In this document: in pieces, positions 4,949 to 52,511 of the stretch
How positions within the stretch are numbered: position 1 is the first letter of the stretch
How the letters are laid out: each line of letters begins with the position of its first letter
NCBI RefSeq assembly: GCF_900218065.1
Contig: NZ_OBMU01000001.1
Location: forward strand, 272,336-336,335
From: Novosphingobium sp. Chol11
GTDB lineage: Bacteria; Pseudomonadota; Alphaproteobacteria; Sphingomonadales; Sphingomonadaceae
Reading direction: 5' to 3'
DNA: 64,000 bases
Translations under genes and position numbers: made by a program
The notes under the pieces: generated by a model
Told to the model about the DNA's origin: nothing
Seen by the model: only the letters and a program-made list of their open reading frames with translations
The model's database searches: none

Positions 4949-7387
4949 ATGGCCTCGCGTATCAAAAGGGATGGGGAAGCGTGGACGGGCGAACGCCCTT
5001 CCCGGCTGGCCCTGCCGCTGCTGATACTGGCTGCGCTGCTGTCCGCGATCCTGATCATTTTCGCGAGCGGCAACGCGGCGGTCGGCGCTGGTTTCGGCGC
5101 AATGATCCTGGCCGCCGCCGCGCTGCTCAGCTGGTATCGCCGCCTCTTTCCCGAAAAAGCCGCTGACCTTGACGCGGTGCCGGACTGGACGGTCGCGCGG
5201 GCCGCAGCGGACGCGTCGAGCATGGCGATCGCGGTCACTGATCGTGCCGGGCGGCTCGTTTGCGCGAGCGACCTGTTTGGCGAATGGTTTCCCGGATTTC
5301 CAACGCCCCCCAACATCACGGCCGAAACGGGGCTGGCCCAAAGCCTTGCCGATGCCGCGCGCGGAGCCTGGCGCGACGGCGAAGCGCGGGTGGAAGGCAT
5401 GGCGCAGGGCGCGCTGCGGCTGGACGTCGATATCAGCCGCACGGGCCGGTCGGAAGATTATCTGCTGTGGCGCTTTACCCCCGTGCGCCAGCCCAACGCG
5501 CTGGATGACGTGCATCGGCTGCTGACGGGCGATGCCGGGCGGCAGATGGGTGAGGCCGGGATCATGGCGGTCATGATCGGGGGGGAAGGGCGCATCCGCT
5601 CGGCCAATGGCGCTTTCCTGCTGCGCGCGGCGGGGCGGATCGACGCCAACATCACCGGGCGCGATTTTGCCGCCCATATGCGGGTCGATGACAAGGGACG
5701 GCTGTTCCTGGCGCGGGAAGAGTCGGGCGGGTTGCCGCTGCGGCTGTTGCAGGTGCCCTTGCGCCGGGCGACGCAGCCGGGCGGCTATCAAGGGAGCGGG
5801 CAGGGCGGAGGGCAGGACGGCCCGATGCTCCTGCTGCTGATCGACGAGCCTGCGGGCAGCGCGGGCGGCACGTCGGCGCTTTCCTATATCGAAACGCTGC
5901 TGTCGCTGCTGCCCTTTGGCCTGGCGATGGCGGATCGCGACGGGCGCATCCTGTTCCTGAACGGCGCCTTTTCCCGTGCCGTGGGGCTGAAGCGGAGCGA
6001 GAAGCCGAGCTATCCGGGCGACCTTGTCGTGCGGGAGGATCAGGCGGCCGTCGCTGATGCCGTGCGCCGCTTTGCCGTGGGGCCGCAAATGTCCGGCGAC
6101 ATCGCGATCAGGCTGCGGAACGAACCGGAGGAGCCCACCGCGTTGAGCCTCGCGGGCGTCCGTGGATTGGGCGAGGCGGCGGTGCTGCTGAGCCTCAAGG
6201 ACAATAGCGAGGAAAGCAAGCTCAAGCGGCAGGTGGCGCAAGCGACGAAGATGCAGGCGATCGGCCAGCTGGCTGGCGGCGTCGCGCATGATTTCAACAA
6301 TATCCTGACCGCCATCATCGGCCATTGCGACCTGATGCTGATGCGCCATACGCCTGGCGACAGCGACTATGACGATATTCAGCAGATCAAGTCGAACAGC
6401 AATCGCGCAGCCGGGCTGACGCGCCAGCTGCTCGCTTTTTCACGGCAACAGACGCTGCGGCCGCAGGTGCTGCAACTGCCCGACATCGTTGCCGATGTCT
6501 CCAACCTTCTGAAGCGCCTGCTGGGCGAGAGCGTCAAGCTGGAGGTCAGCCATGGCCGCAACCTGGGCGCGGTGCGCGCGGACCCGGGCCAGTTGGAGCA
6601 GGTGATCGTGAACCTGGCGGTCAATGCCCGCGACGCCATGCCCGAAGGCGGCATCCTCAATATCCAGACCTATGCGGTTCCGGCGGGCAAGGTGCGCGAG
6701 ATGCGGCAGGAAATATTGCCAGCCGCCGACTATACCGCGCTGCGCGTATCCGACACCGGGCTCGGCATTCCGCCCGACATTCTTTCCAAGATCTTCGAAC
6801 CCTTCTTCACGACCAAGGAATTGGGCAAGGGCACCGGGCTGGGCCTGTCGACGGTCTATGGCATCGTCAAGCAATCGGGCGGCTACATCTTTGCCGAATC
6901 CGAACTCGGGCGGGGCGCGAGCTTCGTCATCTACCTGCCCGTCTATCAGGGCGCGGACATGGAGCAGGCGATCCCCGCAAAGGCGCCGATCAAGCGCAGC
7001 GAGACATGGGGCACCGGCACCGTGCTGCTGGTCGAGGATGAGGACATGGTCCGCGCCGTTGCCGAACGCGCGCTGTCGCGGCAGGGCTACAAGGTGCTGA
7101 CCGCCCATGACGGCGAGCAGGGGCTGGAGGTGCTGGCAGGCGGCGAGCAGATCGACCTGCTGATTTCCGATGTGGTCATGCCCAATATGGACGGCCCGTC
7201 CATGGTTGCGCGCGCGCGGGATACGCATCCTGACCTTCCGGTATTGTTCATGTCGGGCTATGCCGAGGAACAACTGCGCAAGTCGATAGACCTTGCCAAT
7301 GTCGCCTTCCTGCCAAAACCCTTTTCCGTCAGCCAGTTGGCAGAGGCCGCGCGTGATGCCCTGGCGATGCGGCCCACGGCTGAATGA
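4949..7387 (+). CDS. cckA: Hybrid sensor histidine kinase, CckA-like
   Basis: The 812-residue protein is a probable CckA, the kinase/phosphatase that feeds the ChpT-CtrA phosphorelay controlling cell cycle and motility in alphaproteobacteria. Two membrane helices (about residues 20-40 and 44-63) are followed by PAS-like regions, a HisKA domain whose H-box [14 protein letters not shown] places the phospho-histidine at His447, an HATPase domain with N ([14 protein letters not shown]), G1 (DTGLGIP) and G2 ([11 protein letters not shown]) boxes, and a C-terminal receiver with Asp741 in [12 protein letters not shown]. The [10 protein letters not shown]-box and this domain order are typical of CckA. 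The start follows a GGGGGAAGG ribosome-binding site. No chpT or ctrA lies nearby. Confidence 0.85.
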
Positions 7388-7410
7388 ACTTCTTGAACGA
7401 TCAAGCGTTT
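7385..7410 (+). promoter_or_regulatory. Candidate EcfG (general stress sigma) promoter
   Basis: TGAAC (7385-7389), 16 bases, then CGTTT (7406-7410) matches the alphaproteobacterial EcfG consensus GGAAC-N16/17-CGTT except for the first base. It lies about 58 bp upstream of the single-domain regulator, in the short gap after cckA. The match is by eye; transcription start data would be needed to confirm it. Confidence 0.45.
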
Positions 7411-7467
7411 ATACTGGTCCGCGCGTCGATGATAAGATAGCGAGCGTGACGAAATAGGGGATCGCAC

Positions 7468-7824
7468 ATGTCGGACAGCAAGACCATCCTGGTGGTCGAA
7501 GATGAAGCAATGATCGGCATGATGCTGGAAGATTATCTCGAAACATTGGGATATCGCCTGCACGCGGTTGCCGTTTCGGTGGATGAAGCCTGCGATCAGG
7601 CGCGCAGGGGCGGCTTTGACGCGGCGCTGCTCGACTGCAATTTGCAGGGCGAGAAAAGCTGGCCCGTGGCCGACATATTGGCCGAGACGGGAATTCCCTT
7701 CATCTTCGCCACGGGCGGCATGGCTGATGATGTGCCATCAGGTCATGCGGATCGGCCGACGCTGGCGAAACCCTATACGATCGGCGCGGTCGAGCGAGCA
7801 CTGGCGAAGGTGCTTTCCGCCTAA
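7468..7824 (+). CDS. Single-domain response regulator, FAT GUY type
   Basis: The 118-residue cytoplasmic protein is a receiver domain with no output domain. It shows the acidic pocket (VVEDEAMIG), the phospho-acceptor aspartate in ALLDCNLQG (about residue 55), and PFIFATGG followed by AKPY with the conserved lysine. PFxFATGG defines the FAT GUY receivers; characterised members in Sphingomonas and Caulobacter (SdrG, MrrA) act as phosphate shuttles in the general stress response. A candidate EcfG promoter lies upstream. Although it follows cckA by 80 bp, its relatives work with HWE/HisKA2 kinases, so the adjacency need not mean a CckA partner. The recA SOS box begins 14 bp after the stop. Confidence 0.85.
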   Translation: MSDSKTILVVEDEAMIGMMLEDYLETLGYRLHAVAVSVDEACDQARRGGFDAALLDCNLQGEKSWPVADILAETGIPFIFATGGMADDVPSGHADRPTLAKPYTIGAVERALAKVLSA

Positions 7825-7837
7825 ATAGGAAATTTCC

Positions 7838-7852
7838 GTTCCCCTCTTGTTC
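7838..7852 (+). promoter_or_regulatory. LexA (SOS) box of recA
   Basis: GTTC (7838-7841), seven bases, GTTC (7849-7852): an exact match to the direct-repeat LexA operator of alphaproteobacteria. It is 75 bp upstream of the recA start. With the matching box at 9160 it indicates LexA repression of both recA and the mutasome operon. Confidence 0.88.
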
Positions 7853-7926
7853 TTTGAGAACAAAGCGGATACGTAGTGGCCAAGGCGCCACTTAATCGGC
7901 GCTTCCGCTTGACAGGGGATAGGCCG

Positions 7927-9000
<1,074 letters not shown>

Positions 9001-9159: not shown

Positions 9160-9174
9160 GAACATAAGAAGAAC
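9160..9174 (+). promoter_or_regulatory. LexA (SOS) box of imuA-imuB-dnaE2
   Basis: GAAC (9160-9163), seven bases, GAAC (9171-9174) is the exact reverse complement of GTTC-N7-GTTC. It ends six bases before the imuA start codon, so LexA would cover the transcription start or ribosome-binding region. Confidence 0.85.
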
Positions 9175-9180
9175 ATTCTT

Positions 9181-9996
9181 ATGGTCGAGTCGGTAAAAAC
9201 CCTTGCAGCCCTCAGGCGGCATATCGCATCGCTGGAAGGCATTCCGGCTATGGAGGCTGGTGCGCCGGTGGCGACGGGACATGGTCTGTTCGATCAGGCC
9301 TTGCAAGGCGGTCTGGCACGCGGGCGGCTGCATGAGCTTTTCGGCGGTGACGAGGATGAAGGCGCGGCAGCGGGCCTGTCGTTGATCCTTGCTCATCTGG
9401 CGGCGGGCGATTTGCCGCTCTTCTGGCTGCGGCTTGCCAAGGGGACGGGCGCGCAGCCCTATGGGCCGGGACTTGCGGAACTGGGGATTGATCCGGCGCG
9501 ACTGCTGATCGGGGCAATGAAGGATGAGGCGCTGCTGCTGCGCGCGGCGGTCGATGTACTGCGCTGCCCGACGCTGGGGGCATTGGTGATCGAACTGCGC
9601 GGGCGCGCGCCGCTCATGGACCTGACGGCAAGCCGCCGCCTGGCGCTGGCAGCCGAAACTTCGGGAGTCACGGCCTTCCTATTGCGGATCGGCGGCGATC
9701 CCGTGCCGAGCGCGGCGGAGACGCGGTGGCGGGTGGAGGCCGCGCCTTCCCTGCCTTTGCCGGGCAACGCGCCGGGCATGAGCGCCTTTTCACTCCACCT
9801 GCTGCGCCGCCGGTCGGGGCCGGACGGCATGACATGGCGGATGGTGTGGAATGCCGAGCGGGGAGATTTTGGAGAAGAGTGCGATGAACGCCATGAGCAT
9901 GGATGGGCAAGCGGAGGACGCGCTGAAGAGGCGGCGCTACCTGGCGCTGTGGTTCCCCTTCCTGGCGGTCGATCGGCTGCGCATCGCGCGGCCTGA
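9181..9996 (+). CDS. imuA: SOS mutagenesis protein ImuA
   Basis: The 271-residue RecA/SulA-like accessory protein belongs to the ImuA-ImuB-DnaE2 mutasome, which carries out damage-induced error-prone synthesis. The RecA-like core is visible in GHGLFDQALQGGLARGRLHE (about residues 33-52) and the following hydrophobic strand, but no canonical Walker A lysine motif is present, as is usual for the family. The ATG at 9181 directly follows the SOS box; the next in-frame ATG (residue 24) would still keep the core. The 3' end overlaps imuB by 113 bp, longer than the few-base overlaps elsewhere in this window. Confidence 0.88.
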   Translation: MVESVKTLAALRRHIASLEGIPAMEAGAPVATGHGLFDQALQGGLARGRLHELFGGDEDEGAAAGLSLILAHLAAGDLPLFWLRLAKGTGAQPYGPGLAELGIDPARLLIGAMKDEALLLRAAVDVLRCPTLGALVIELRGRAPLMDLTASRRLALAAETSGVTAFLLRIGGDPVPSAAETRWRVEAAPSLPLPGNAPGMSAFSLHLLRRRSGPDGMTWRMVWNAERGDFGEECDERHEHGWASGGRAEEAALPGAVVPLPGGRSAAHRAA

Positions 9997-11488
9997 TCTG
10001 TGGCAGGCGCAGGCCGGTGCCGGGCCGGTCGCCATCGTCGAGTCCATGCGCGGGGCGATGCGTCTTGTCACGCCGGACGCCGACGCGCTGGCGCTGGGCC
10101 TGAGCGCGGGCATGACGCTGGCTGATGCGCGGGCGCAGGAGCCCGACCTTGTCAGCTTCGAAGCTGATCACCACGCCGATCAGGATTGGCTGGAGCGGCT
10201 GTGCGATGGATGCGCGCGCTATACGCCGGCGGCGGCGATCGATCCGCCGCATGGGCTGATGCTGGACATCACCGGCTGCGCGCATCTGTGGGGCGGGGAG
10301 GAGGCCATGGCGCGTGAGGCGGTGGACCGGTTCGAGCGGCACGGCATGGAGGTGCGTCATGCGATGGCGGGCACGGCGGAGGGAGCCCATGCGCTGTGCC
10401 GCTTTTCCGCAGGACCAGCGCCCGATGAAGAGGCTGCCTTGCGCCGCCTGCCGGTGGAGGCGCTGGAGTTGGAGCAGGAAAGCAGCGTGGCGTTGCGGCG
10501 TGCGGGGCTGCGCACCATCGGCGACCTTGCCGCCAGACCAGCCGCAACCCTGGCGGCGCGTTTTGGCGAGGAGGCGGTGGATGCGCTGCACCGCCTGTTG
10601 GGTCTGGGGCATCGTCCGCTTAGCCCCCGCCGCCCACGCCCTGTGCTGCGGATCGAGCGCCGTTTCGCAGAACCGGTGGGCAGCACCGCCTATGCCCTGC
10701 AACGGGTCGAGGAGATGGCGGCCGAAGCGGGCGAGCGGCTGGCCGAGCGGGGCGAAGGCGGGCGGCGGTTCGAGCTGTTGTTCTTTCGCACCGATGGTCT
10801 CGCTTTTCCGCTGCGGGTGGAAACCGGGCTGCCGGTGCGCGACGCGCCCGCGATCATGCGGCTGGTGCAGGAGCGGATCGACAGTCTGTCCGATCCGCTC
10901 GATCCCGGTTTCGGCTTCGACATGCTGCGCCTTGCCGTGCCGCAGACCGAGCCGATGGCTGCGACCCAACTGGCGCTGGAAGGCGGGGAAGCGCGGCGCG
11001 AGGAAGCTGTCGCGGCGCTCGTCGACCGGCTGTCCGTGCGGGCCGGCCGCAATCGCATCCAGCGCCTGGAGCCGCGCGACAGCCATATTCCCGAGCAGGC
11101 GCAGCTCGCCTTGCCCGCGATCGAAAGCCGCACGCTATCCAGTTGGCCGCGCCAGGGCGAACCGGGCGACCCACCCATGCGCCCCATCCATTTGTTCGAT
11201 CCGCCCCAGCCGATCGAGGTGGTGGCGGAAGTTCCGGATGGCCCACCCCATCATTTCCGTTGGCGGCGCAGCGTGCATGAAGTGACCCGCTATGAAGGGC
11301 CGGAGCGGATCGCGCCCGAATGGTGGAAGGCGAAGGACGGTGCGCTGGCGGGCGAAAGCGCAGGGATGACCCGCGACTATTACCGGATCGAGGATGCGCG
11401 CGGCCGCCGCTACTGGATTTTCCGCCACGGCCTTTACGGCACGGAGGCGCGGCATCCGGGGTGGTATATCCACGGCCTGTTCGCATGA
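9884..11488 (+). CDS. imuB: Mutasome protein ImuB (inactive Y-family polymerase)
   Basis: The 534-residue DinB/UmuC-like protein acts as the adaptor of the mutasome. The Y-family fold is recognisable (YLALWFPFLAVDRLR at the N-terminus; MLDITGCAHLWGG in the palm), but the acidic catalytic residues are largely missing: LWFPF replaces the usual DMDAF, so polymerase activity is not expected. A likely beta-clamp-binding peptide, QLALP, lies near residue 407 (11102-11116). The frame is open from 9851, but the ATG at 9884 has GGAG nine bases upstream. The stop overlaps the dnaE2 start as ATGA. Confidence 0.9.
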   Translation: MNAMSMDGQAEDALKRRRYLALWFPFLAVDRLRIARPDLWQAQAGAGPVAIVESMRGAMRLVTPDADALALGLSAGMTLADARAQEPDLVSFEADHHADQDWLERLCDGCARYTPAAAIDPPHGLMLDITGCAHLWGGEEAMAREAVDRFERHGMEVRHAMAGTAEGAHALCRFSAGPAPDEEAALRRLPVEALELEQESSVALRRAGLRTIGDLAARPAATLAARFGEEAVDALHRLLGLGHRPLSPRRPRPVLRIERRFAEPVGSTAYALQRVEEMAAEAGERLAERGEGGRRFELLFFRTDGLAFPLRVETGLPVRDAPAIMRLVQERIDSLSDPLDPGFGFDMLRLAVPQTEPMAATQLALEGGEARREEAVAALVDRLSVRAGRNRIQRLEPRDSHIPEQAQLALPAIESRTLSSWPRQGEPGDPPMRPIHLFDPPQPIEVVAEVPDGPPHHFRWRRSVHEVTRYEGPERIAPEWWKAKDGALAGESAGMTRDYYRIEDARGRRYWIFRHGLYGTEARHPGWYIHGLFA

Positions 11489-14400
11489 AACGCGGCAAGG
11501 GGCCTGATCCGTCGAAGCCTAAATCGATGGATCGGCGAGAGTTGGATGCGGTCGAAGCGGTCCGGGAAAGAACGCGGATGAAGGAGGCGCGGCCTCCGCC
11601 ACCGCGCAAGGATGGGCCTGCCTTTGCAGAATTGTTGGCCGCCACCAACTTTTCCTTCCTGCGGGGCGCTTCCCATGCCTCGGACATGGTAGGGCAGGCG
11701 ATTGATCTTGGCCTTAAGGGGCTGGGGATCGCCGATCGCAACACGGTGGCGGGCGTGGTGCGGGCCTGGTCTGCGCTCAAGCGCGCGCCCGAAAAGGCGC
11801 GAGCCCGCCTGTTGGAGGCAAAGAAGGAGGCGGGCCAGCCGTTGGAGCTGAATGAGGAAGAAGAACAATCATGCCAAACCGACCTGAAACTCGTTGTCGG
11901 CGCACGTCTGGTCTTTTCCGACGGCACTCCGGACATAGTCGCCTATCCGTCTACGCGGCGTGGCTGGGGGGAACTCACCAAGCTGCTGACGGTGGGCAAT
12001 TTGCGGTCGGTGAAAGGGGACTGCATCCTCAACTATGAGGATCTGACGGCCTATCTTGATGACTTGCTGCTGATCGTCCTGCCGTCCTCCAGCGCCACGG
12101 AGCAGACCGCCCATCGGAAGCCGGTTGAATATGAGTATGACGACAGGCCATCTCAGGAAGCGATCCGGCAGGGACATTTGAGCCTGGTCCCGCCACCGCG
12201 TCCTGCCGATCTTGAATCCTATCTTCGGCGGTTGGCCCGATTGGCGCCAGATCGCGTTTGGCTGGGTGTGGCGTTATGTCGGGACGGGCGGGACGCGCGA
12301 CGGATCTCCCACCTTAAGGGTTTAAGTGCCCGCACAGGCGTTCCTCTGGTCGCGACGATGGATGCGCTTTACGCCACGCCTGAGGAGCGGCCATTGCAGG
12401 ATGTGCTGAGCTGCATCCGCGAAGGCGTGACCATCGGCAAGGCAGGACGCTTGCTGGAGGCCAATGCCGAACGGCACATTCATGCGCCCGATGAGATGGC
12501 GCGGTTGTTCCGCGACTGCCCTGAAGCTCTGGCTGAAAGCATGCGCTTTCTTGGCAGAGTGCATTTCAGGCTGGACCAGTTATCCTATGAATATCCCCAT
12601 GAGCCGGTGCCCGAAGGCTGGACGGCGCAGCAATGGCTGGAGGAATTGACCATATCGGCCGCCCATGCGCGCTATGGTCCGCATATTCCGGCCAAGGTGC
12701 GCAAGCTGCTGGATGACGAGTTCAAGCTGATCCGCGAGCGTAACTATGCTTATTATTTTCTGACCGTTTACGACATTGTCGCCTTTGCCAAAATGAAGGG
12801 CATATTGTGCCAAGGGCGCGGATCGGCGGCCAATTCCATGGTCTGTTTCCTGCTGGGCGTCACCTCGGTCGATCCGGAACGGCATGAACTGCTCTTTTCC
12901 CGCTTCGTGTCGGAAGAAAGGGACGAGCCGCCAGATATCGACGTCGATTTCGAACATGAGCGGCGCGAAGAAGTGATGCAATATATCTACGATCGCTATG
13001 GGCGGCATCGCGCAGGGATCGCAGCGACCATCATTCATTACCGCTCCCGCAGTGCGGTGCGCGAGGCCGCCAAGGTGCTGGGCCTTAGCGAAGATGTGGT
13101 GGCGCGCCTATCGAGCACGGTTTGGGGCAGCTATTCGGACGAATTTCCCGAAGCGCGAATAACCGAGGCAGGCTTCGACCTTCATAATCCTCAGATCGTG
13201 CGGTTGCGGGCAGTGGTGGATCGGCTGCTGGACGCTCCTTTTCCCAGGCATCTGTCGCAGCATGTCGGCGGTTTCGTTCTGACCCAGAACCGGCTGGATG
13301 AAACGGTGCCGCTGCATCATGCTGCCATGGCGGACCGTAGCTTCATCGAATGGGACAAGGATGACATTGATGCGCTGGGATTGATGAAGGTCGACATTCT
13401 GGCGCTGGGCATGTTGACCTGCATCCGCAAGGCTTACGATCTGATGAGGCTCCATAGGCTGGGCGATCATGACCTCAATATCGATCTTAAATCGGACGAT
13501 CCGGCCGTCTATGACATGCTGGAAAAAGGCGACAGCATCGGCGTGTTCCAGGTGGAAAGCCGGGCACAGATCAACATGCTGCCGCGTTTGCGCCCCCAAT
13601 CCATCTATGACCTGACGGTGCAGGTGGCGATCGTGCGACCCGGACCAATCGAAGGGGACATGGTGCACCCCTATTTGCGGCGAAGATGCGGAGAGGAGGC
13701 GGTGGAATTTCCCGCGCCTGATCCTATCCATGGTCCGCACGATGAACTGAAATCCTTGTTGGGCAAGACCTACGGCGTCCCCCTGTTCCAGGAACAGGCG
13801 ATGAAGCTCGCTATTGTCGCGGCGGAATTTACGCCTTCGGAGGCCAATCAGCTGCGGCGGTCGATGGCGACTTTCCGGCAGGTGGGGGGCATGGACAAGT
13901 TCAAGGAGAAGATGATCGGCGGCATGGTGCGGCGTGGGTATGAGCGCGATTTTGCCGAGCGATGCTATAGCCAGATCGAGGGGTTCGGCAGCTATGGCTT
14001 TCCCGAAAGCCATGCCTTGTCCTTTGCCCGGCTGGTCTATGTGTCGGCCTGGATCAAGTGCCACCAGCCTGCCGTTTTCGCCTGCGCGTTGCTGAATTCG
14101 CAGCCCATGGGCTTTTATGCCCCGGCGCAGATCGTCCGGGATGCGCGGGAGCATGGCGTTACCGTGCATGATGTGGATGTGAACATGAGCGGGTGGGACA
14201 ATGCGCTTGAACCCCTGCTTCGATCGCGAAACAGGCGGCGGGGTGAAGGGGAAGGCCGGGCGTTGGCGCTGCGGCTGGGTTTTCGCCAGATCGATGGCTT
14301 TCGCGAGACCTGGGCTGCGCAGATGGTCGAGGCGCGGGCGCAGGGTCTGTTCACCAGCCTTGAGGATCTGGCGCGGCGGGCGGGGTTGCCTGCGCGGGCG

Positions 14401-15099
14401 CTGCGCCTGCTGGCGGATGCGGACGCTTGCCGGTCGTTGGGACAGGACAGGCGGGCGGCGCTGTGGGAAGCGCGACGGACGCCGTCCAATGAATTGCCGC
14501 TGTTCGCCGCTGCCCGCAAACGGGACCAGAAAGCGGCGGGAGAATTGGGGCAGGAACCGGACGCCCTGCTGCCCGCCATGCCGCTCGCCGAACAGGTCGC
14601 GGCCGATTACCAGATGACGCGCCTGTCCCTAAAAGGCCATCCGATGCAGTTCCTGCGTCCGGTCTTTGCGGCCGAGGGCGTGCTGAGTTGCGCGCAGACA
14701 TCGGCGGCAAAGAACGGGACGAAGGTGCGGACTGCAGGCGTGGTGCTGGTGCGGCAGCGGCCGGGCAAGGGCAACGCCGTCTTCATCACGATCGAGGATG
14801 AGACGGGGATCACCAACATTTTGCTGTGGGCGCGACTGTTCGAAATGCAGCGGCGGCCTGTCATGGCGTCGCGGCTGATGATGGTCGAGGGTGAGGTGCA
14901 GCGGAGCAAGGAAGGCGTCGTCCACCTGATGGCGACCCGCGTGCATGATCGCACCGCCGAGATGTCGCGCCTTTCGGATACGCATAAGCCGCATATCGCC
15001 TTGTCGAGGGCGGATGAGTTTTTGCATCCCCAGCACCCGCGCACGTCCAGCCATCCGCGCAATGTGCGCATCTTGCCCAAGTCGCGGGACTTTCATTGA
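11485..15099 (+). CDS. dnaE2: Error-prone DNA polymerase DnaE2
   Basis: The 1204-residue C-family polymerase is the catalytic subunit of the mutasome. The order is an N-terminal PHP domain (FAELLAATNFSFLRGASH), the polymerase palm with PPDIDVDFEHERREEV carrying catalytic aspartates, helix-hairpin-helix repeats, and a C-terminal OB fold (VFITIEDETGITNILLW). ELPLF near 14491-14505 resembles a clamp-binding motif. The protein is longer than the usual 1050-1100 residues: a charged segment near 11768-11878 (KRAPEKARARLLEAKKEAG and an acidic NEEEEQ stretch) and a second near 12085-12180 interrupt the PHP region. The start is fixed by the ATGA overlap with imuB. Confidence 0.93.
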   Translation: MKRGKGPDPSKPKSMDRRELDAVEAVRERTRMKEARPPPPRKDGPAFAELLAATNFSFLRGASHASDMVGQAIDLGLKGLGIADRNTVAGVVRAWSALKRAPEKARARLLEAKKEAGQPLELNEEEEQSCQTDLKLVVGARLVFSDGTPDIVAYPSTRRGWGELTKLLTVGNLRSVKGDCILNYEDLTAYLDDLLLIVLPSSSATEQTAHRKPVEYEYDDRPSQEAIRQGHLSLVPPPRPADLESYLRRLARLAPDRVWLGVALCRDGRDARRISHLKGLSARTGVPLVATMDALYATPEERPLQDVLSCIREGVTIGKAGRLLEANAERHIHAPDEMARLFRDCPEALAESMRFLGRVHFRLDQLSYEYPHEPVPEGWTAQQWLEELTISAAHARYGPHIPAKVRKLLDDEFKLIRERNYAYYFLTVYDIVAFAKMKGILCQGRGSAANSMVCFLLGVTSVDPERHELLFSRFVSEERDEPPDIDVDFEHERREEVMQYIYDRYGRHRAGIAATIIHYRSRSAVREAAKVLGLSEDVVARLSSTVWGSYSDEFPEARITEAGFDLHNPQIVRLRAVVDRLLDAPFPRHLSQHVGGFVLTQNRLDETVPLHHAAMADRSFIEWDKDDIDALGLMKVDILALGMLTCIRKAYDLMRLHRLGDHDLNIDLKSDDPAVYDMLEKGDSIGVFQVESRAQINMLPRLRPQSIYDLTVQVAIVRPGPIEGDMVHPYLRRRCGEEAVEFPAPDPIHGPHDELKSLLGKTYGVPLFQEQAMKLAIVAAEFTPSEANQLRRSMATFRQVGGMDKFKEKMIGGMVRRGYERDFAERCYSQIEGFGSYGFPESHALSFARLVYVSAWIKCHQPAVFACALLNSQPMGFYAPAQIVRDAREHGVTVHDVDVNMSGWDNALEPLLRSRNRRRGEGEGRALALRLGFRQIDGFRETWAAQMVEARAQGLFTSLEDLARRAGLPARALRLLADADACRSLGQDRRAALWEARRTPSNELPLFAAARKRDQKAAGELGQEPDALLPAMPLAEQVAADYQMTRLSLKGHPMQFLRPVFAAEGVLSCAQTSAAKNGTKVRTAGVVLVRQRPGKGNAVFITIEDETGITNILLWARLFEMQRRPVMASRLMMVEGEVQRSKEGVVHLMATRVHDRTAEMSRLSDTHKPHIALSRADEFLHPQHPRTSSHPRNVRILPKSRDFH

Positions 15100-49714: not shown

Positions 49715-50593
49715 ATGCTGCTGCTACCTCATCGCGCGCTACGGCAGATGGTCCAGCACAATGTCGCCAAGGTCTTCGGGTCTGGGGGAGAAAGGATCAA
49801 CCTCGACACGCCCCTTGGTGATCAGGGGCTGTTCGGGCAGCAATCCATGGCGTGGCGCGTGCATCAGGATTTCACGAGCATGATGACCGGCGGCATCGCC
49901 GCGCTCCTGCTTCAGATGCTTCATCCTGCTGCGCTTGCTGGAATATGGGACCATAGCCGCTTTCGAGAGGATCGTAGCGGGCGGTTGCGGCGGACGGCTC
50001 AGTTCATCGCGGGCACAACCTATGGCGCGACCGCCGAAGCCGAACGCCTGATCGCGCATGTCCGCGCCGTGCATGATCGGGTGGAGGGGGAACTGCCGGA
50101 TGGAACCCATTATCGCGCGAGCGATCCGCAGCTGTTGCGCTGGGTCCATGTCGCAGAGGTCTATTGCTTCCTGACGGCCTATCGCCGCTACCGGGCGCCT
50201 ATTCTAAGCCTGCGGGAGCAGAACCGCTATTATGGGGAAATGGCCGGTCTTGCCGAACGGCTGGGTGCTGCGCCCGTCCCTCGCACCGTTGTGCAAGTGC
50301 GGGAATATCTATCCGCCATGCGGCCGCAGCTTCGCAGCGATGAGCGGACGAGGGAGATCGTGTCCCTCCTGGCCGAACCCACGCCGGGCTTGCTCAACGC
50401 GCCCTTCAGCAAGGTTGCGATCGACGCGGCGATCGATCTGCTGCCGCCCTGGGCAGCGCGCATGCATGGCTTTGAGCTGGGGCCTGGCCGCCATGTGACA
50501 CGGGCGCAGCTGGCGGGGATGGGGCTTCTTATGCGCTGGGCGCTGGATGGCGGGGCTGCGAGCCGGGCTGAGCGGCGGGTCAGTCAAGCCTAA
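49715..50593 (+). CDS. Oxygenase MpaB family (DUF2236) protein
   Basis: The 292-residue protein has the DUF2236/MpaB domain: MLHPAALAGIWDHSRFREDRS (split: MLHPAALAGIWDHS, RFREDRS), RLRRTAQFIAGTTYGATAEA, WVHVAEVYCFLTAYRRY and REQNRYYGEMAGLAERLG. Members such as MpaB and the latex-clearing protein Lcp share this all-helical b-type haem fold and cleave C=C bonds, but most are uncharacterised. GCAGGAGG precedes the ATG at 49715. The 3' end overlaps the convergent ligase gene by 14 bp. Confidence 0.82.
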   Translation: MLLLPHRALRQMVQHNVAKVFGSGGERINLDTPLGDQGLFGQQSMAWRVHQDFTSMMTGGIAALLLQMLHPAALAGIWDHSRFREDRSGRLRRTAQFIAGTTYGATAEAERLIAHVRAVHDRVEGELPDGTHYRASDPQLLRWVHVAEVYCFLTAYRRYRAPILSLREQNRYYGEMAGLAERLGAAPVPRTVVQVREYLSAMRPQLRSDERTREIVSLLAEPTPGLLNAPFSKVAIDAAIDLLPPWAARMHGFELGPGRHVTRAQLAGMGLLMRWALDGGAASRAERRVSQA

Positions 50594-51623
50594 GCAGCTG
50601 ATTGATCTCGGCCGGGCGCAGTTCCGCTTGCAACTGGTCGCATGTGCATTGGCGCGGCGCTTTGTCGGGACGCCAGCGCAGGAAGCGGGTGCCGTGGCGA
50701 AAGCGCCCGCCGGTCACCTGATCGTAGATGACCTCCACCACCAATTCGGGACTCAGCGGCTCCCAGGCGCTCTCCTCGCCTTTGTTCCAGCGGCTCGGGC
50801 CACCCGGCGCCTTGCCGGTGAAGCCGGAGCCACCGGCAAGCGGCTCAAGGCGTTTTAGCAGATGGGCGCGCTCATCAGCCTTGAACGCGGAGGTGAAGCC
50901 GACATGGTTGAGTTTGCCTGCTTCATCATAGAGCCCCAGCAGCAGGGATGCAGCGCCGCCACCATCAGCCGTGCGGCGGAATCCGCCGACCACGCAATCG
51001 GCGCTGCGATAATTTTTCATCTTCATCATGGCGCGTTCGCCGGAGCGATAGGGCGCATCTAATGGCTTGGCGATAATGCCATCCAGCGCGCCGCCGCTTC
51101 CTTCCAGCCAGCGGTCGGCATCCTCGATCCGTTTACTTGCGGGCGACAGGAGCAGCGTTTTTGTCCTATTCTTTGCGTGAAAACGCTCCAAGGCCGCGCG
51201 GCGTTCGTGCAAGGGAGAGTCCATCAGGTCGCTCCGCCCCAGCGACAGGCAATCGAACAGCATCAGCTGCGCCGGAGTTTCGCGGGACAGGCGCATAATT
51301 CTGCTTTCCGCTGGGTGCAGCCTTTGCTGCAAAGCATCGAAGGAAAGAACGCCTTCCACGGGCAGGATCAACTCGCCGTCCAGCGCATAGCGGCTCTCGG
51401 CCGTTGCAAGCAGGGCATCAATGATCTCCGGAAAGAAGCGTGCCAGCGACTTGCCGGATTTTGACCGTATGTCGGCTTGCCCGCCGTCACGGCCGACGAC
51501 AGCGCGGAAGCCGTCCCATTTGGGTTCATATTGCCATCCCGGAGGCGTCGGCAGTTCGGATACGAGCCGCGACTCCATCGGCAGCGGCAAGGCAAGCTCC
51601 ATCGGGTCTTCCGCTCCGGTCAT
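50580..51623 (-). CDS. ATP-dependent DNA ligase (LigC/LigD ligase-domain type)
   Basis: The 347-residue stand-alone ligase has the adenylation domain with motif I EPKWDGFRA (Lys34 region, AMP acceptor), LDGELIL (motif III), LDGIIAKPLD (motif IV) and MMKMKNY (motif V), then an OB fold (VVEVIYDQVTGGRFRHGTRF). No polymerase or phosphoesterase domains are attached and no ku gene is adjacent, so it is not an obvious full NHEJ system. The start overlaps the xthA stop (ATGA), so ligase and abasic-site nuclease are co-produced, pointing to base excision repair. Confidence 0.9.
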   Translation of the reverse strand: MTGAEDPMELALPLPMESRLVSELPTPPGWQYEPKWDGFRAVVGRDGGQADIRSKSGKSLARFFPEIIDALLATAESRYALDGELILPVEGVLSFDALQQRLHPAESRIMRLSRETPAQLMLFDCLSLGRSDLMDSPLHERRAALERFHAKNRTKTLLLSPASKRIEDADRWLEGSGGALDGIIAKPLDAPYRSGERAMMKMKNYRSADCVVGGFRRTADGGGAASLLLGLYDEAGKLNHVGFTSAFKADERAHLLKRLEPLAGGSGFTGKAPGGPSRWNKGEESAWEPLSPELVVEVIYDQVTGGRFRHGTRFLRWRPDKAPRQCTCDQLQAELRPAEINQLLRLD

Positions 51624-52408
51624 GGCTCCTCTCCGCTCATATCCAGCGTGATCACCACGGGCGCATGGTCGCTCGTCTTTTCCCAGGCGCGAGGCCGGGT
51701 GTCGACTTCGGCGGCGACCAGCTTGGCTGACGCCACCGGGTTCAGCAGTGCGTGATCGATCCGCAGACCGGCATTGCGCTCGAAGGAGCCACGCCAATAT
51801 TTCCAGAAACTGTAGATCACCTCATCCGGATGCAGTTGCCGTATCGCATCGCTCCATCCCTGATCGAGGAGTCGTTGGTAGGCAGCGCGCACCTCCGGGG
51901 CGAACAGGGCATCGTCGCGCCACCGATCGGGAACATAAACGTCAAGGTCAGTCGGCATCACATTATAATCGCCAGCGATGACCACCGGCGCGTCGACATC
52001 GATGAGCGAAGCCATATGGCTGTGCAGCCGATCGAACCAGCGCAGCTTGAAATCGAATTTGGGGCCAGGGCGAGGATTGCCGTTCGGAAGGTAGAGGCAG
52101 GCAATGAGGACCCCATTCACCGCTGCTTCGATGTAGCGGCTCTGCACATCATTCGGGTCGCCCGGCAATCCGCGCCGCGTTTCATGAATCGCGCCAACAC
52201 GGCTGAGGATCGCGACGCCGTTCCACCGGCTCTGCCCGTGCCATATTGCATCATATCCCGCATCGCGGATCGCCCGCTCGGGAAAATTCTCCTGCGGAGC
52301 CTTCAGCTCCTGCAAGCACACAATGTCTGGCTCGGCCTGCTCCAGCCATCGCAGCAGCACGGGAAGACGTCCATTGACGCCGTTCACATTGTAAGTCGCG
52401 ATCTTCAT
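51620..52408 (-). CDS. xthA: Exodeoxyribonuclease III / AP endonuclease
   Basis: The 262-residue Mg-dependent nuclease of the exonuclease/endonuclease/phosphatase fold incises abasic sites and removes 3' blocks. Motifs in order: ATYNVNGV, CLQELKAP (metal-binding Glu), LYLPNGN, AGDYNVMPTDLDV (catalytic Asp/Asn), RIDHALL and the terminal SDHAPV. The length is standard. It is the first gene of a two-gene operon with the ATP-dependent ligase. Confidence 0.92.
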   Translation of the reverse strand: MKIATYNVNGVNGRLPVLLRWLEQAEPDIVCLQELKAPQENFPERAIRDAGYDAIWHGQSRWNGVAILSRVGAIHETRRGLPGDPNDVQSRYIEAAVNGVLIACLYLPNGNPRPGPKFDFKLRWFDRLHSHMASLIDVDAPVVIAGDYNVMPTDLDVYVPDRWRDDALFAPEVRAAYQRLLDQGWSDAIRQLHPDEVIYSFWKYWRGSFERNAGLRIDHALLNPVASAKLVAAEVDTRPRAWEKTSDHAPVVITLDMSGEEP

Positions 52409-52511
52409 GTCTTTTCAGCAAGACGCTCCGCGGCTCGATTGGTTCGACGAGGGCAGGAACGACGCCGTCGCCAGCCCGTTCTTTCGCCAAGGCATCCAAG
52501 GAGCGAATGAC

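Follow-up and report, generated by a model that had tools for sequence, protein, structure and literature searches.

Which protein is encoded by the small response regulator gene lying between cckA and recA in Novosphingobium sp. Chol11, and is this gene itself transcribed as part of the EcfG-controlled stress response? A first-pass annotation of the window (the whole stretch of 64,000 nucleotides that was analysed) had placed a FAT GUY regulator directly between these two genes, and that order holds, with all three genes on one strand (Table 1). The regulator gene begins 80 bases past the cckA stop codon, and recA comes next. We consider, with a probability of roughly 80%, that the gene is an sdrG orthologue with a likely housekeeping-type promoter and possible read-through from cckA, and that it probably does not belong to the EcfG regulon by way of the site proposed for it.

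Table 1. Features of the cckA-sdrG-recA region, in positions of the window
Feature	Position	Strand	Basis or remark
cckA, hybrid histidine kinase (PAS, HisKA, HATPase, receiver)	4949..7387	+	Pfam
TGAAC-N16-CGTTT, put forward as an EcfG promoter, most likely a chance match	7385..7410	+	Overlaps cckA stop codon
Region aligned to the bipartite element, CTGGTC-N18-TAGCGA (relatives CTGGGC-N18-TAGCGA)	7414..7443	+	Alignment, de novo motif
sdrG orthologue, single-domain FAT GUY response regulator	7468..7824	+	ORF of 118 aa, PDB match, tree, cckA linkage
Predicted phosphoacceptor Asp56 codon (LLDCNL)	7633..7635	+	Translation, residue check
FAT GUY motif PFIFATGG, residues 77-84	7696..7719	+	Translation
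SOS-type box GTTC-N7-GTTC upstream of recA	7838..7852	+	Kept in relatives
recA	7927..9000	+	Pfam RecA, E 1.5e-147

Identity of the regulator

The 118-aa product is a receiver alone, with no output domain. Its single Pfam match, Response_reg, scores 28.3 bits, slightly below the cut-off of 30.2, and no NCBIfam model reached its cut-off; a search of Rfam matched nothing in 7000-8200. The FAT GUY motif is described as PFXFATG(G/Y) (PMC5964349) and is present as PFIFATGG, as the first-pass annotation had read it. The receiver match is far above chance, with SdrG of Sphingomonas melonis Fr1 (5ieb/5iej, E 2.3e-27) as the best solved match in a PDB search, followed by Sma0114 of Sinorhizobium meliloti (2lpm/2m98, E 2.4e-27). 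The window protein is 52% identical to SdrG over 111 aa and carries a complete active-site set (E11, D12, D56, T82, and K101), of which E11, D12, and D56 were checked directly and T82 and K101 were read from the motif and AKP positions. The mutated aspartate of SdrG is D56 (PMC5898713). Unlike SdrG, the window protein has a loop that is one residue shorter (QGEKS versus RGGEKS), so that the motif threonine is residue 82 here and residue 83 in SdrG, and the SdrG numbers 83 and 102 land on G and P.

To place the protein among its relatives, a maximum-likelihood tree was built from 100 receivers (77 linked to cckA or recA, 21 unlinked, five of them from the genome of the window, and SdrG and Sma0114), which has few alignment columns and a midpoint root. 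One fork (99/90) of 79 rows comprises all 77 linked proteins, SdrG, and a single unlinked copy, while the other 20 unlinked paralogues and Sma0114 lie outside it. The motif ends in GG in 74 of the 77 linked proteins (39 FATGG, 19 LATGG, 7 LSSGG, and others) and in GY in 18 of the 21 unlinked ones. Sma0114, although a FAT GUY receiver as well, thus differs from the window protein both in its FATGY ending and in its place in the tree. Five receivers from the same genome were considered as the true SdrG (L002, L003, L004 with VPFAFLTGY, L005, which is PhyR, and L006) and rejected, as all are outside the SdrG fork.

A search with the SdrG sequence returned at least 441 relatives among at least 598 matched stretches, the best 80 of which were taken as SdrG-like loci. 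Both the locus of SdrG itself (L042, 100% identity) and that of S. melonis AS2.3 (L044, 94%) have cckA directly upstream, as does the window gene. Based on the tree fork shared with SdrG and the common gene order, the window gene is an sdrG orthologue, which sharpens the family assignment made earlier. It further shares with SdrG the single receiver, the PFxFATGG motif, and Asp56. MrrA of Caulobacter crescentus, reported as the best bidirectional hit of SdrG, is of the same FAT GUY kind according to its published description (PMC5964349).

Several other receivers are worth recording. In one branch of the genus (L195-L200, L203, and L208), the linked regulator is kept while LSSGG replaces FATGG (seven rows; L208 has FASGD); judged from these sequences, the motif drifts while the gene position stays. 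The unlinked second copy within the SdrG fork (L349, G156:C5:218651-218986) reads IPFVLATGG, and a relative of the window gene with 85% identity is present in the same genome. In the genome of the window, two HWE/HisKA2 kinase frames (L002 and L003, 857 and 620 aa) also have a FAT GUY-related receiver, reading FVTGY in L003. The single receiver of locus L004 (1459-1830 of that locus, minus strand) overlaps both of its neighbours by a few bases, a 200-aa ORF on its upstream side and, on the downstream side, a gene that looks Crp/Fnr-like by eye.

A conserved bipartite element in the cckA-sdrG spacer

How the gene is transcribed was approached through the spacer between cckA and sdrG, using 162 of 189 intergenic regions, dereplicated to 106; the other 27 were left out because cckA was not usably matched or because the gap was shorter than 33 or longer than 160 bases. 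Expectation-maximisation for two hexamers with a variable gap yielded TTGGC[AG]-N14/15-[GC]GCTA[AGT] with a log-likelihood of 267.9, a value somewhat inflated by the shared ancestry of the sequences. A second run, with as many seeds for the real as for the shuffled set, reached 274.6 in a shifted register; the 12 dinucleotide shuffles gave 86.9-102.7. Restricted to the genus (40 regions), the search gave CTGGGC and TAGCGA (239.9 versus 62.2-75.0 shuffled), and Sphingomonas alone (46 regions) gave TTGGCG and CTAAGG (236.3 versus 67.5-77.2), while the motif was weak in other genera of the family (20 regions; 63.3 versus 38.3-45.7). The motif resembles the RpoD boxes of Caulobacter, TTGNCNS and GCTANAWC (PMC8144410).

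When the spacers of the genus are aligned, TAGCGA is their most strongly conserved part. In the window, the -35-like half, CTGGTC, is a poor match, with the search putting its best site elsewhere (posterior 0.35). The aligned region in the window is a probable promoter by analogy with its relatives. A scan for an E. coli-type sigma-70 promoter found none. TATRCT occurs upstream of the gene in 35 of 80 same-genus loci and was set aside in favour of the bipartite element, as no -35 was seen at 16-18 bases from it.

The most serious alternative, although we consider it rather unlikely, is that a promoter of its own is irrelevant and that sdrG is made at the level of cckA as the second gene of a cckA-sdrG operon. 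This would fit the single strand, the 80-base gap, and the closeness of cckA (within 350 bp) in 181 of 189 loci; a terminator search over 7150-8050 found no candidate site, against a chance expectation of 0.9. The conserved bipartite element would then need some other reason, however, and in 8 of the 189 loci cckA was not found within 350 bp. Under the favoured reading, sdrG would be transcribed from a housekeeping-type promoter just past the end of cckA, possibly with read-through, and the relay protein would therefore already be there before stress.

The proposed EcfG promoter

The first-pass annotation had proposed an EcfG promoter, one base off, upstream of the gene. The letters are as described, TGAAC spanning 7385-7389 and, after a spacer of 16 bases, CGTTT spanning 7406-7410, and the spacing and CGTT agree with EcfG-dependent promoters of S. 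melonis, but the interpretation as a promoter is not supported. The published S. melonis form is GGAAC-N17-20-GTT, and the 50 sites tabulated in that study (Table 1) all start with G or C and never with T (PMC6599016), while in Sphingopyxis the two boxes seen most often are GGAAC and GCAAC (PMC7083833). The site in the window starts with T, and the stop codon of cckA supplies its TGA.

Counts of the pattern are close to those expected by chance. GAAC-N16/17-CGTT occurs five times in the 64-kb window compared with 2.60 (sd 1.76) in shuffles, and TGAAC-N16/17-CGTT has 40 matches in the genome compared with 33 for the reversed pattern. The strict GGAAC-N16/17-CGTT shows no enrichment (37 matches versus 107 reversed), although true EcfG sites should still be among the 37. 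Upstream of the probable ecfG of this genome, GGAAC-N16-CGTT is present. The only strict match within the window lies at 52456-52480, between genes for exodeoxyribonuclease III and an ATP-dependent DNA ligase (50580-52408 on the minus strand) and either within or ahead of a small plus-strand ORF; it is a better EcfG candidate than 7385-7410, even though the pattern is unenriched genome-wide.

Conservation points in the same direction. Within 130 bases before the gene, NGAAC-N15-18-CGTT was found in 4 of 80 same-genus loci and was absent in 76; three of the four are the window and its two nearest relatives (L001, L122, and L123), and the fourth (L197) has a different site. Among the SdrG-like loci of other sphingomonads (best 80 of at least 441), this pattern was absent from all 80 over the 160 bases upstream of the aligned protein. 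The looser NGAAC-N17-20-GTT occurs before the gene in 6 of 80 same-genus loci and in 2 of 80 SdrG-like loci (L096 and L100; best 80 of at least 441), there at other positions. As a positive control, GGAAC-N17-20-GTT was found before nepR in 27 of 30 same-genus loci (from 41 genomes searched), 26 of which share a common site and one of which (L232) is unrelated; this pattern was loosened, following the published S. melonis form (PMC6599016), after the stricter one requiring CGTT had given 1 of 30, the unrelated site in L232. EcfG-type sites are thus visible as conserved in the genus (26 of 30 loci at nepR), and the site in front of sdrG (3 of 80, or 4 counting the different site in L197) does not look like one. 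With a wrong first base, a chance frequency, and no conservation, it was rejected as an EcfG promoter and is most likely a chance match.

A weak EcfG promoter that was gained recently, giving positive feedback on the stress relay in this species and its closest relatives, appears quite improbable to us. Such a promoter would be consistent with TGAAC-N16-CGTT occurring at one position in the three closest loci with fitting spacing, with TGAAC-N17-GTT being kept in two further loci, and with CGTTT beginning 62 bases ahead of the start codon. Moreover, a CGTT -10 gave the most transcript for every promoter tested in Sphingopyxis (PMC7083833), and SigT controls lovK and lovR in the stress pathway of Caulobacter (PMC5964349). 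Nonetheless, several relatives with 83-89% protein identity retain TGAAC but show CGATT, GGATT, or GTGTT in place of the -10, and this comes in addition to the first base T, not seen in any of the 50 tabulated sites, the overlapping stop codon, the chance-level genome count, and the absence from the SdrG-like loci.

Gene neighbourhood and its history

The kinase upstream is named with some support from NCBIfam, where its top two models are CckA models, each below the whole-protein cut-off. The recA frame is open from GTG 7876, with ATG 7927 the likelier start. Across searches of the family (149 genomes, 104 with a match) and of the genus (94 genomes), as well as the SdrG-like set (best 80 of at least 441), cckA has the same orientation and lies within 350 bp upstream in 25 of 29 loci from elsewhere in the family, 76 of 80 loci of the genus, and 80 of 80 SdrG-like loci, fractions that are not population estimates because the loci are the best-scoring of their searches. 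Downstream, recA is similarly close (within 350 bp) in 23 of 29 loci of the family set and 76 of 80 of the genus set but in only 8 of the 80 SdrG-like loci (best 80 of at least 441), a further difference between the window gene and SdrG of S. melonis.

In 27 loci from other alphaproteobacterial families, no SdrG relative was found downstream of cckA (tblastn, E 0.01, about 1.5 kb), and in 13 of them recA comes after cckA with no such gene in between, lying within 250 bases in 12 cases. These are the top-scoring loci from a search that matched CckA in 101 of 153 genomes of the class, three of them within the family. We further selected 26 relatives that lack a good match; CckA was matched in 24, of which two have a divergent regulator beside cckA (L203 and L208) and eight have recA within 200 bases after cckA. 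Because recA follows cckA without sdrG both in other families and in some relatives, the cckA-recA order appears, from these loci, to be the older one, and sdrG would have entered it in sphingomonads and disappeared again from some lineages.

An SOS-type box, GTTC-N7-GTTC, which we take to be a LexA site, lies between the regulator and recA in 52 of the 54 loci that have both genes (59 examined), and recA is probably under separate control by this box of its own. The grouping of cell-cycle, stress, and DNA damage genes within 5 kb thus appears to be inherited in part: recA also comes after cckA where sdrG is absent, and it has its own SOS-type box. On the far side of recA, a GAAC-N7-GAAC SOS-type box at 9160 stands ahead of an imuA-like gene (9181-9996; NCBIfam ImuA model at 42 bits, below the 150 cut-off), followed by an imuB-like gene of the Y family (9851-11488, matched weakly) and a gene for a DnaE2-like, error-prone polymerase (11320-15099, above cut-off). 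This stretch (9160-15099) is apparently a mutagenesis cassette adjoining recA.

The sdrG gene is accordingly a frequent neighbour of cckA in sphingomonads. No text on this neighbourhood was found in the literature searched, mostly without subscription papers, and sdrG and the pak genes have been described as scattered in the genome (PMC5898713).

Stress relay partners and a possible link to CckA-ChpT-CtrA

All kinds of partner known from the S. melonis relay are present in the genome of the window: HWE/HisKA2 kinases, PhyT, PhyR, NepR, and EcfG, with PhyT and EcfG assigned as probable from position and domains. Pfam identifies nepR and a divergent phyR (PhyR_sigma2, PhyR_sigma-like, and Response_reg), and the HWE_HK and HisKA_2 models match one common set of seven kinase loci. 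One of these, a HisKA_2 kinase with an HRVKNN motif adjoining nepR, is probably phyT, named by position and motif; a two-domain sigma-70-type gene after phyR is probably ecfG, named by position and Pfam domains. The relay order in S. melonis runs from the Paks through SdrG, PhyT, PhyR, and NepR to EcfG (PMC5898713), and we infer a like order in Chol11. By analogy with S. melonis, HWE/HisKA2 kinases would phosphorylate Asp56, the phosphoryl group would pass via the PhyT histidine to PhyR, and phosphorylated PhyR would remove NepR from EcfG and so turn on the stress regulon.

The linkage to cckA raises a second, more speculative point. The CcsA/CckA-ChpT-CtrA pathway reportedly controls motility and biofilm formation (so the title of Francez-Charlot 2015). 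In S. melonis, sdrG and pak mutants show many motility and biofilm genes upregulated after stress compared with the wild type and phyR and ecfG mutants (PMC6599016). Moreover, FATGUY-like motifs are present in the receiver of CckA and in CpdR, and the authors describing them relate these motifs to ChpT contact (PMC9981736). Given these motifs and the cckA linkage in 80 of 80 SdrG-like loci (best 80 of at least 441), direct exchange between the two relays is a reasonable hypothesis to raise: cckA-sdrG may form a functional unit in which SdrG exchanges phosphate with CckA-ChpT-CtrA, such that stress would reach motility and biofilm genes without PhyR and EcfG. We regard this as a long shot. In the literature passages covered, the EcfG-bypassing effect of SdrG on motility and biofilm genes was nowhere linked to the regulation of motility and biofilm through CckA-ChpT-CtrA. 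That the FAT GUY receiver has departed from the stress relay altogether and is mainly a partner of CckA or ChpT in cell-cycle and motility control would draw on the same linkage and motifs but is very improbable, since the cckA linkage is equally present for S. melonis SdrG, a stress-response protein (PMC5898713), and the stress partners are present in this genome.

A gene left vague by family models is thus given a fixed identity as sdrG, and a tempting claim of an EcfG promoter is removed. The gene order points to a link between SdrG and CckA that is testable in S. melonis and that, if true, would explain why motility and biofilm genes are misregulated in sdrG and pak mutants of that species but not in phyR and ecfG mutants.
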